Shown here: piece after piece, positions 13,726 through 35,044 of the stretch
Layout of the letters: every line of letters starts with the position of its first letter
How positions within the stretch are numbered: position 1 is the stretch's first letter
Assembly: GCA_002722175.1 (NCBI GenBank)
Contig: PBKU01000050.1
Coordinates: 124,001-188,000 of the forward strand
Direction: 5' to 3'
DNA: 64,000 nucleotides
Origin: Magnetovibrio sp.
Lineage (GTDB): Bacteria > Pseudomonadota > Alphaproteobacteria > Rhodospirillales > Casp-alpha2
Translations under genes and position numbers: made by a program
Notes under the pieces: generated by a model
The model's database searches: none
What the model was told of the DNA's origin: nothing
Seen by the model: the letters and a program-made list of their open reading frames with translations, nothing else

Positions 13726-14930
13726 CCTTCTACCTCTTCTTTGTCTCTACTTCCCGATATAAGCCATGGTACAAGATTAATTGGTTGACCATTTTTTCGA
13801 AACTCAGCGTACAAACTCGGTTTTTTACTATTCAATTTTGCCATTATACCTACTGGATCACCGATTGTTAATGTAGCACCTGGGTCAACAGTAATTTTTT
13901 CCATCCCAGCTAAAAGACTATGATATCCGTCCCCGTGTTCAATTATCAATAACAACCCATAGCCCCGAAATTCCCCTGTGAAAACAACCCGCCCGTGATA
14001 TGTTGCGATCACTGGGGATCTTGGTTCAGTTTCTATAGTTATCCCTTTTTGGATTATTCCAGAGTTGTTCTTTTGACCAAACCGTGAAGTCAATTTTCCA
14101 ACGACTGGGAAAAGAAATTTGCCTTTCGCAGCTGCTACCGGTTGCACTTTACTCCAAGTTGCATTTCTTTTTCTACTTTTTTTTGTATTTTTCGATACTG
14201 TAAACCTTTTTTTTGATGTAAGCTCTTTAAGAAGGTCTTTTAAGGTTTTTGCTTTTTTGGCGAGGAGTGATAGGCGCTCATTTTCTTGAAAAATTCTTGA
14301 GTCTGTTCGACGCTTCAATATTTCCTTTCTTGATAATAACGCAGAAAAATGCCGTTTTTGTTTATCCAAACTAGATAATAATAGTTTTATTTTATTTTTT
14401 TTGTGGGCGATTTCCTCTTTTCTTTTTGAAAGCGTTTTTAGCGTGTTAGCAAGGAAGTTAGCTCTTTCTTTTATATGGCCTAAACTAGTGCGCAGTAGAA
14501 GCGAACTACGTACGGAGTCTATCGGGCTACTCGGGAGGGCTATTGAAGCTTCGGGTGGAATCTTAGCCAGTCTGTACAACGCAACAAACAAATATTCGAA
14601 TCGGTTTCGATCACTCTCTAACTCTAGCAAACTATTTTGTTGGGAATAGTTTAATTTTTCTAGGTCTCTGCGAGCTAACTTTATTTGCTTTTGATTCTTT
14701 CTAATAGCGCTAACGGTCGAGACAAGTTTGTGGCGAAGTTTTTTAGCTTCTTCTTCTAGGGCCTCCTTCCGTTTACTAAGACTTGAGCGGTTTTTTATTC
14801 CCCTAGCAATATTTTGTTCAATTGCTTTTAACTCTTGCAAAGGGGAAGTCTGGCTTTGTGACGGTTGAAGAGCGGATAGAGTGCAACCAATCACAAGTGA
14901 GAGTTTGAGCAGATTTGTTGCAATTTTCAT
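13722..14930 (-). CDS. envC: Murein hydrolase activator EnvC family protein
   Basis: A 402-residue periplasmic protein: a signal peptide, long coiled coils (about residues 30-115 and 170-245, heptads rich in Leu, Lys, Glu), and a C-terminal LytM/M23 domain (about 275-390). The LytM metal ligands are lost: the usual HxGxD segment reads GIIQKGITIE and the usual HxH reads LYAEF. It therefore should not cut peptidoglycan itself but activate amidases, as EnvC does at the division site. It overlaps gpmI and ctpA by four bases each. Confidence 0.9.
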   Translation of the reverse strand: MKIATNLLKLSLVIGCTLSALQPSQSQTSPLQELKAIEQNIARGIKNRSSLSKRKEALEEEAKKLRHKLVSTVSAIRKNQKQIKLARRDLEKLNYSQQNSLLELESDRNRFEYLFVALYRLAKIPPEASIALPSSPIDSVRSSLLLRTSLGHIKERANFLANTLKTLSKRKEEIAHKKNKIKLLLSSLDKQKRHFSALLSRKEILKRRTDSRIFQENERLSLLAKKAKTLKDLLKELTSKKRFTVSKNTKKSRKRNATWSKVQPVAAAKGKFLFPVVGKLTSRFGQKNNSGIIQKGITIETEPRSPVIATYHGRVVFTGEFRGYGLLLIIEHGDGYHSLLAGMEKITVDPGATLTIGDPVGIMAKLNSKKPSLYAEFRKNGQPINLVPWLISGSRDKEEVEG

Positions 14931-16504
14931 TCTGCTGCTACGAGAGCTTGGGCGGCTGGACCCCGTAACAGTGATTTTCCAGTCATAGACTTAGGCTTAT
15001 TGATATTTAAAAGTGCCAACAATGTTGGCGCGACGTCTGAAAGGCGGCCGTTTTTTAGACCTGTAATACCTTCTGGGGCTCCGACTAAAATTATTGGAAC
15101 AGGGTTCATGGTATGAGATGTATGTGGTTGGTCATTCGTAAAATCAACCATTGATTCACAATTACCATGATCTGCCGTTATTAACATAAGACCTCCTGAT
15201 TTGGATAGAGCTTGTTCAATCCGTCCCAAGCAATGGTCTATAGTTTCCACCGCACTCTTTGCTGCTCTTAAAACACCAGTGTGCCCTACCATATCTCCAT
15301 TCGCAAAATTAACTACAATTAAATCATATGACTTTTCAGCGATAGCGGAAACCAGACTATTTGTTACGTCAGCAGCAGACATGTCAGGTTTTTGATCATA
15401 AGTACTAACATTTGGTGACGGGATCATTATACGTTTCTCTCCGTCAAAGGGTAGTTCTCGACCCCCGTTAAAAAAAAATGTTACGTGAGCGTATTTTTCT
15501 GTTTCCGCAACTCTGAGCTGAGATAAACCAGCCTTAGATACTATTTCCCCGAGAGTATTTTCGAGATTGACTGTTGGAAATAAAGAGCTCAGTACTTTAT
15601 CCAGTTTATCAGAGTATGGTACCATCCCGTAATGCTCTAAAAAACGGGCATGGTCGGGCCTTGAAAATTCACAAAAATTAGGATCTGTCAGTGCAGTAAG
15701 GATTTCCCTTATTCGATCTGCACGAAAATTTGCAACCAATAGGCTATCAACACTTTTTACACCTGAATATCCTTTAACAACGGTTGGTAGAAAAAACTCA
15801 TCTGTTATCTTAGCGGCATATGATAAACGAATAGCTTCAACGATATCTGGTGAAAGATTTCCTTTTGCCATCTGGATTGCTTGCCATGCTTTTTGAATTC
15901 GGTCCCATCGCTTATCTCGATCCATTGCATAATACCTTCCGGTAACGCTTCCAATCGAAAAAGTTGAATGTTTTGAAAATTTGGAAAGGAAAACCTTTAC
16001 ATCATTGATGGCTTGCTTTGGCGGAGTATCACGTCCATCTAAGATGGCATGTAAGATAACCGGAACGTCTGATGACAGTATTGTATTGGCAAGGGCTGAA
16101 ATATGATTTTGGTGGCTATGTACACCTCCAGATGATAATAACCCAAGTAAATGGCAGCTTCCTCCGGATTTTTTTAGGGTATTGATGAGCTTAATAAGTT
16201 CCGGAGTTTTGCCTAAAGTATTGTTTCTAATCGACTCGTTAATTCGAGTTAAACCTTGCGGCACAATCCTACCTGCTCCGATAGTTGCATGGCCAACCTC
16301 AGAATTTCCAACTTGACCTTTTGGTAGCCCGACTTCAGATTCAGAGGTATTGAGCACCGCTTTTGGCCAACGATTTTTCAATCGATCAAAAACGGGGGTT
16401 CTAGCCATAGCGATAGCATTATTCGTATCGTCCTTGCCTTCCCCCCACCCATCTAGTATGCACAGAATCAAAGGCTTTTTATTGTTAGTTTTGCTATTTG
16501 GCAA
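14927..16504 (-). CDS. gpmI: 2,3-bisphosphoglycerate-independent phosphoglycerate mutase
   Basis: This manganese-dependent enzyme of the alkaline phosphatase superfamily interconverts 3- and 2-phosphoglycerate in glycolysis and gluconeogenesis. The 525-residue product has the first metal site LDGWG (residues 18-22), the nucleophilic Ser68 in GNSEVGH, the DGRDTPP motif, and the C-terminal metal site with NFANGDMVGHTG and TADHGNCE. The start is a TTG at 16504 with GAGGAA six bases upstream, which decides it. The stop overlaps envC by four bases. Confidence 0.96.
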   Translation of the reverse strand: MPNSKTNNKKPLILCILDGWGEGKDDTNNAIAMARTPVFDRLKNRWPKAVLNTSESEVGLPKGQVGNSEVGHATIGAGRIVPQGLTRINESIRNNTLGKTPELIKLINTLKKSGGSCHLLGLLSSGGVHSHQNHISALANTILSSDVPVILHAILDGRDTPPKQAINDVKVFLSKFSKHSTFSIGSVTGRYYAMDRDKRWDRIQKAWQAIQMAKGNLSPDIVEAIRLSYAAKITDEFFLPTVVKGYSGVKSVDSLLVANFRADRIREILTALTDPNFCEFSRPDHARFLEHYGMVPYSDKLDKVLSSLFPTVNLENTLGEIVSKAGLSQLRVAETEKYAHVTFFFNGGRELPFDGEKRIMIPSPNVSTYDQKPDMSAADVTNSLVSAIAEKSYDLIVVNFANGDMVGHTGVLRAAKSAVETIDHCLGRIEQALSKSGGLMLITADHGNCESMVDFTNDQPHTSHTMNPVPIILVGAPEGITGLKNGRLSDVAPTLLALLNINKPKSMTGKSLLRGPAAQALVAAE

Positions 16505-33148: not shown

Positions 33149-34144
33149 TTAGACTATACCAACACTTATGCAGTCATGAATATGCACAACTCCAATTGGA
33201 ATATTGTCTTTCACTACAAAGAAATTTGTTATTTTTTCAGAGTTCATTCTATTTAACGCTTCGCTTGCGAGTATGTCAGAATTAATGGTTTTTGCGTCTG
33301 GTGTCATGATCTCATCTACACGGGACTGCAATATGCTATCTCCCATATGTCGGCGAAGGTCCCCGTCAGTAATTACCCCAATTAGTTTTTTGTTTTCCTC
33401 AATAACACCAATACAGCCAAGTCGTTTTGAGGTCATTTCAATGATTGCTTCAGACATCAAGGCATTTCTATTAATAAGTGGTATTTTGTCACCAACATGC
33501 ATGATATCTCGAACTTTTAGTAGTTGTTGGCCCAACTTTCCCCCTGGATGAAAAGTTTGAAATTTCTCGGGAGTAAAATTTTTTCGCTCAAGTAAAGCGA
33601 TTGCGATAGCATCCCCGAGAGCTAATGCCATGGTTGTTGACGTTGTTGGGGCTAAGCCCATAGAGCATGCCTCAACATTTTTTGGAAGTATTATGCTAAT
33701 GTTTGCTGCGTTACCTAGTTCACTTTTTTTCCTACTGGTGACCGCAATAAGCGGGATTTTCAATTGTGTTGCGTAACTTATCAAATCAGTTAGCTCCGGA
33801 GTATTACCGGAGTTAGAGATTGCAAAAAGGGCATCGTTTTTTGTAATCATCCCCAGATCGCCATGAGAGGCCTCTGCCGGGTGAACAAAGAAAGCAGGTG
33901 TTCCAGTTGATGCTAGTGTGGCAGCAATTTTACGAGCAACATGCCCACTTTTCCCGATTCCGGTAACAGCAACACGACCTGTTATTTCCGTCAAAATATC
34001 TAATGCGGAAATCAATTCTTCGCCTAAAGCTTCACTAAGGGCTTTGAGACCTTCTATTTCCAAGCTTATTACTTTACGTGCAAGAACTAAATCTTTGCTT
34101 TTATAGGTCTGATCAAAAACCGAAACGACGGTGTTATCATTCAT
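33149..34144 (-). CDS. kdsD: Arabinose-5-phosphate isomerase, KpsF/GutQ family
   Basis: The enzyme converts ribulose-5-phosphate to arabinose-5-phosphate, the precursor of Kdo in lipopolysaccharide. The 331-residue product has an N-terminal SIS sugar isomerase domain (GIGKSGHVARKIAATLASTG near residue 63, HPAEASHGDLG, SNSGNTPEL) and two C-terminal CBS domains (about 210-325). It heads the kdsD-lptC-lptA-lptB-rpoN run, consistent with coordinated synthesis and export of lipopolysaccharide. Confidence 0.95.
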   Translation of the reverse strand: MNDNTVVSVFDQTYKSKDLVLARKVISLEIEGLKALSEALGEELISALDILTEITGRVAVTGIGKSGHVARKIAATLASTGTPAFFVHPAEASHGDLGMITKNDALFAISNSGNTPELTDLISYATQLKIPLIAVTSRKKSELGNAANISIILPKNVEACSMGLAPTTSTTMALALGDAIAIALLERKNFTPEKFQTFHPGGKLGQQLLKVRDIMHVGDKIPLINRNALMSEAIIEMTSKRLGCIGVIEENKKLIGVITDGDLRRHMGDSILQSRVDEIMTPDAKTINSDILASEALNRMNSEKITNFFVVKDNIPIGVVHIHDCISVGIV

Positions 34145-34261: not shown

Positions 34262-34906
34262 CTAGTGAGAAAATATATCAGTGTGCCCCCACCCGGTTAG
34301 ATCTAACATTGCTTGCGTTGGCAGAAATTTAAAGCAATCCTCTGCAAGGTTGTTCCTTTTTTCTCTTTCCAGCATCAAGTCAAGATGGTGTTTAATGATA
34401 TGGAGATTAAGGACATCAATTGCGGCATAATTTTTCTGTGCATCCGTTAGATCATTTCTTGCCCAATCAGAAGATTGCTGCTCTTTTTAAATATCAATTC
34501 CTAGTAATTCTTTTGTTAAATCTTTTAGGCCATGCCGTTCAGTATAAGTCCGAACAAGTTTTGAGGCAACTTTAGTGCAATATACTGGGGTGCACAGAGT
34601 ATTTAGGTTTTGTTTGATTATTGCCAAATCAAATCGAGCAAAATGGAATAGTTTTACAACATTGGGATTCTTTAAAAGTTTTTTTAGATTAGGTGCATTA
34701 AAAGTTTTTCTAGTGAATTGCACCAAGTGGCAATGGCCATCTCCCGCAGACAGCTGCATCAGGCATAGGCGATCGCGCAAGGGATTAAGACCTTGGGTTT
34801 CTGTATCAATAGCTACCGATCCACTGAAACCTAACGAGTTTGGTATGTCTCCGTCATGCATGTGAATTGATATAGGCTTATTCCGTGGTTGGAAAGACAC
34901 TTTCAT
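34262..34906 (-). pseudogene. rnd: Ribonuclease D (3'-5' exonuclease) interrupted by an in-frame TAA
   Basis: Read through from ATG 34906 (AAGGAG four bases upstream) to TAG at 34262, this is a complete single-domain RNase D of about 213 residues. Codon 140 is TAA (34487-34489). Before it lie exonuclease motif I (Asp34/Glu36 in VAIDTETQGL) and motif II (Asp93). After it, in the same frame, come the conserved KEQQSSDWARNDLT and motif III Tyr160-x3-Asp164, then an ordinary C-terminus. Intact homologues usually have Ser at this position (LSKQQQSSDW), so one base change from a Ser codon such as TCA explains the stop. The 139-residue product would lack motif III and be inactive unless the stop is read through. 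A sequencing error is possible. Confidence 0.85.
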
Positions 34907-34957: not shown

Positions 34958-35044
34958 TGGTGCCCAGGAGAAGACTCGAACTTCCACGACCCAAAGGTCA
35001 CAGGTACCTGAAACCTGCGCGTCTACCAATTCCGCCACCTGGGC
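34958..35044 (-). tRNA. tRNA-Leu(CAG)
   Basis: An 87-base tRNA gene on the minus strand. The acceptor stem pairs GCCCAGG with CCTGGGC, the anticodon stem pairs CAGGT with ACCTG around the loop TTCAGGT (anticodon CAG), a long class II variable arm is present, the T loop reads GTTCGAGTC, and the 3' CCA is encoded. It lies 51 bases upstream of the RNase D gene on the same strand. Confidence 0.95.

Follow-up and report, generated by a model that had tools for sequence, protein, structure and literature searches.

A stop codon in the only nrnC gene of a Magnetovibrio draft genome, probably due to a base that most living cells do not carry

How could a bacterium live with a stop codon inside its only gene for an enzyme that is reported to be essential in other genera? 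This question is raised by a 64,000-nucleotide stretch of a Magnetovibrio sp. draft genome (assembly GCA_002722175.1, contig PBKU01000050.1, positions 124,001 to 188,000 of the forward strand), hereafter called the window, in which the reading frame of nrnC, the gene for nanoRNase C (NrnC), is interrupted by an in-frame TAA. The genome holds one copy of nrnC and no second, intact one, the part of the frame beyond the stop is conserved, and no known substitute enzyme was found. Judged from the sequence, the TAA probably contains a base unlike that of most living cells, being either a consensus error or the allele of a minority strain in the draft genome.

The frame lies on the minus strand at 34262..34906, as recognised by translation, Pfam and matches to solved structures. 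It starts with the ATG at 34906, just downstream of a Shine-Dalgarno-like aaggag, and runs for 139 codons (34490..34906, minus strand) to the TAA at codon 140 (34487..34489, minus strand), beyond which 74 further codons (34265..34486, minus strand) lead to the terminal TAG (34264-34262, minus strand); with a stop at codon 140 it is not a complete open reading frame for NrnC. The Pfam 3'-5' exonuclease family DNA_pol_A_exo1 is matched on both sides of the TAA (E-values 7.8e-24 for the N-half, 2.7e-5 for the C-half and 4.8e-36 when the stop is read through). Translation thereby bears out a first-pass annotation of this DNA, which had described a TAA at codon 140 of an otherwise intact frame with the same coordinates, 74-codon tail and TAG, had held that no frameshift is needed, and had placed motif III, Tyr-x3-Asp, past the stop, where it reads YAAID at residues 160-164. 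Rescue by frameshifting or slippage can be set aside, as the downstream part already shares the upstream reading frame.

Which enzyme does the frame encode? The first-pass annotation had named RNase D, and RNase D (TIGR01388, PDB 1yt3) does have the DEDDy exonuclease fold and its motifs in common with the window frame, but it is longer. The best solved match is NrnC of Inquilinus (1.6e-77), and other NrnC chains (7mpr and 7mpl) match at 2.2e-68 and 3e-65, whereas the match to E. coli RNase D is far weaker (4.9e-9). The RNase D model TIGR01388 scores 90.6 bits, covering 20-182 of 363, under a curated cut-off of 298.95. Moreover, the genome has a long RNase D of its own, a distant match at G000:C56:37775-38230 within an intact open frame of 436 amino acids. 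An RNase D identity is excluded by the low model score, the closer NrnC structures and this separate intact gene.

The catalytic DEDDy residues D34, E36, D93, Y160 and D164, the last two past the TAA, are all present and each invariant in 96 homologues; they correspond to D25, E27, D84, Y151 and D155 of B. henselae NrnC at an offset of 9, and in the same way L31, H79 and H205 map to L40, H88 and H214, the mapped residues being invariant or nearly so in the homologues. L31, H79 and H205 of B. henselae make up the L-wedge and phosphate cap, which are NrnC features absent from RNase D (PMC8492067). K103 of B. henselae falls by the same offset in the stretch CTKVASK and was not counted separately as a feature. 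The SKQQQS loop, proposed as an activation loop in NrnC (PMC8492067; residues 130-135 in B. melitensis numbering), reads *KEQQS, the TAA standing for its first Ser; the other residues are present, the first Q being an E here and in most homologues. The part before the stop thus holds the DTE motif (D34, E36), L40 of the L-wedge, H88 of the phosphate cap and the catalytic D93, and the part after it the remainder of the loop, Y160, D164, the last helix and H214. The window frame is like NrnC of Bartonella, Brucella and Inquilinus (PDB 7mpr, 7mpl, 9qth) in length, DEDDy motif, L-wedge, phosphate cap, loop and terminal His, and differs by the stop in place of the first loop Ser. On these matches, the interrupted gene is nrnC and should be labelled so rather than rnd. 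Since a separate RNase D is intact, the process at issue is dinucleotide degradation and not tRNA 3' trimming, on which the first-pass annotation had expected a loss to bear. NrnC is a dinucleotide-specific DEDDy exonuclease, and tRNA 3' trimming is backed up by other exonucleases.

What would the stop do to the enzyme? Translation as written would end at 139 residues, without the activation loop, and the fragment would lack the catalytic Tyr160 and the last Asp164, the last helix, which stacks two rings, and the C-terminal His214, which completes the active site of the neighbouring subunit; for want of these parts the product should be inactive. An enzyme in two pieces, the second made by internal restart, is unlikely, because the first ATG, GTG or TTG after the TAA is codon 177, past motif III.

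Homologues indicate what stood at this place. Ser occupies the column in 91 of 96 distinct homologues (codons TCC 42, TCG 35, TCA 9, AGC 3, TCT 2), in line with the first-pass annotation, and among these codons TCA alone is one substitution from TAA. An ancestral Ser codon would have become TAA by one nonsense substitution in the sole nrnC gene. The first-pass annotation had allowed that homologues might regularly end at this point; comparison of the codon in relatives shows that none of the 96 distinct sequences does. Near-invariant columns are kept at 28 of 29 positions after the TAA and at 38 of 39 before it. The N-half carries D123E in a near-invariant column, a change it has in common with one other homologue, and four other homologues have two or three such deviations. 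With 0 or 1 change at about 60 amino-acid-changing sites, neutral divergence since the stop arose is bounded, as a rough estimate, at ~0.05-0.08 per site, suggesting that the stop, if real, would be young.

Could another enzyme take over? Orn has no match in this genome, nor did the search of 61 relatives' genomes find one, and NrnA and NrnB were not seen in this genome, its sole DHH-family protein being RecJ. A DHH match also occurs in four other relatives, once in each and in a frame of RecJ size, and is absent from G053, which lacks Orn as well. The gene nrnC itself is present in 233 of 248 genomes of the order and in 179 of the 183 of good quality, one genome of 0.9 Mb included, and among the ~150 nrnC matches listed for the order only the copy discussed here has a stop. 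In addition, nrnC was reported to be essential in three alphaproteobacteria, Caulobacter, Bartonella and Brucella (PMC8492067). As no known substitute was found and the gene is kept across the order and reported essential elsewhere, a dead nrnC would be surprising, and this in itself is an argument for a probably unrepresentative base. The lack of a known substitute and the reported essentiality also tell against the rival reading of a genuine nonsense mutation that is widespread or fixed in the population, by which nrnC would be a young pseudogene and dinucleotides would be cleared by another enzyme or their clearance would be dispensable. Such a mutation is possible though clearly the less probable reading; the four good genomes of the order without an nrnC match speak for it, but may merely be incomplete. 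The four relatives are G053 (94% complete), G098, G109 and G237, in which assembly gaps or true loss could account for the missing match, making them possible NrnC-free lineages.

How often are genes broken in this assembly? For this question, 729 kb of the genome were compared with stretches of five relatives, and homology to these extended over 324 kb, in the form of 355 gene-like segments. Genuine in-frame stops were found in nrnC and in glpK (glycerol kinase), and one genuine frameshift in a YgjP-like metallopeptidase gene. In glpK, TGG is changed to TGA at G000:C50:41906 (L145:1906, minus strand) at a position where both G018 and the glycerol kinase 4e1j have Trp, and ~30 codons beyond it are still alignable; the YgjP-like gene at G000:C50:98700-99399 (L147:18700-19399, plus strand) is split near C50:99080 (L147:19080). 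All three lesions are on contig C50, to which 39% of the covered bases belong; such clustering would arise by chance with a probability of ~6%. With two other genes broken on the same contig, lesions are thus present in the assembly at a low background level. Searching in the opposite direction, across 424 kb of the relatives, gave no broken gene judged genuine by inspection. A substitution rate of ~1.4e-4 per base (95% 0.2-5e-4) would yield two nonsense codons, which is compatible with a draft consensus and equally with a few real pseudogenes. Matches with several stops in tblastn searches of L144, L147, L153, L209 and L222 proved to be upstream or antisense extensions of the relatives' frames and not broken genes, and the frameshift signals in L211 and L219 were antisense. 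At 42% G+C, codon usage gave too weak a signal to find further broken genes by a scan, and in 20 of its candidates Pfam detected no domain that extended across a stop. A literature search on stop errors in draft genomes returned nothing.

Could the UAA instead be read? A near-cognate or suppressor tRNA might supply enough full-length NrnC, and the conserved tail, the preserved frame and the absence of a restart codon before motif III would fit; small amounts of an essential enzyme might also be enough. However, of 34 long frames in the window, 18 end in TAA, more than in either of the other stops, and nowhere else in the homology-covered sequence does a genuine in-frame TAA occur. The tRNAs identified include none with a UUA anticodon, although their inventory, from a 91%-complete draft, lacks several expected tRNAs and may thus have missed a suppressor. 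Programmed readthrough would call for a stop conserved among relatives, and none of those listed has one here, so that nothing points to a conserved recoding site. Taken together, readthrough is very unlikely. Reassignment of TAA in the code of the organism, for which it speaks only that this frame would then be open, is practically inconceivable, as TAA ends more than half of the long frames counted above and interrupts no other gene that was checked.

How, then, is the stop best explained? An unrepresentative base, by error or minority allele, is the most likely cause, a real recent nonsense mutation comes second and readthrough third, and the best reading is not programmed readthrough. The list of causes drawn up by the first-pass annotation, a recent lesion, a sequencing error or readthrough, stands together with the Ser at the site, and its gene identity and consequence do not. 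The locus resembles young pseudogenes of bacteria, and draft-genome genes disrupted by a single nonsense codon, in showing one substitution in an otherwise intact frame, a pattern also seen in glpK, but differs from them in that the gene is probably essential. A real mutation draws further support from the TAA as it stands in the assembly and from the two other disrupted genes, which fit ordinary young pseudogenes, whereas decay of the tail is limited to one residue. That residue, R198Q, is a change unique among the homologues at an otherwise invariant position, and the tail/head identity ratio is the fifth lowest of 97; both are weakly consistent with some relaxed constraint and weigh against an unrepresentative base. 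So does the fact that bacteria can usually do without glpK and YgjP-like genes, whose lesions may hence be real pseudogenes, and that the presumed need of these cells for NrnC is carried over from other genera.

Directly upstream of nrnC lies tRNA-Leu(CAG) (34958..35044, minus strand), which is found in this place also in some relatives (stretches L007, L023 and L164), a conserved neighbourhood. Downstream follow a SIS+CBS gene of the KdsD/KpsF type (33149..34144, minus strand) and, after this isomerase gene, lptC, lptA, lptB, rpoN and PTS EIIA, each open and with the expected domains. Elsewhere in the draft, on the short contig G000:C4 (15,069 bases), clustered tRNA genes at 14266-15013 (L141) include tRNA-Ile(AAU) and a tRNA-Lys read by ARAGORN with a 39-base intron, which suggests that the contig is eukaryotic or otherwise foreign contamination.

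What does the interrupted gene mean? Whether or not the base is real, the label nrnC applies instead of rnd. If it is not real, the locus is a useful warning that, where a probably essential gene of a draft genome shows a nonsense codon, the reads should be inspected first. If it is real, the lineage would be without any known dinuclease and could test why NrnC and Orn are essential. There is a small chance that a free-living alphaproteobacterium is genuinely without any of the four known nanoRNases, or makes its essential dinuclease solely via UAA readthrough; were this true, it would imply an unknown route of dinucleotide clearance or regulated readthrough.
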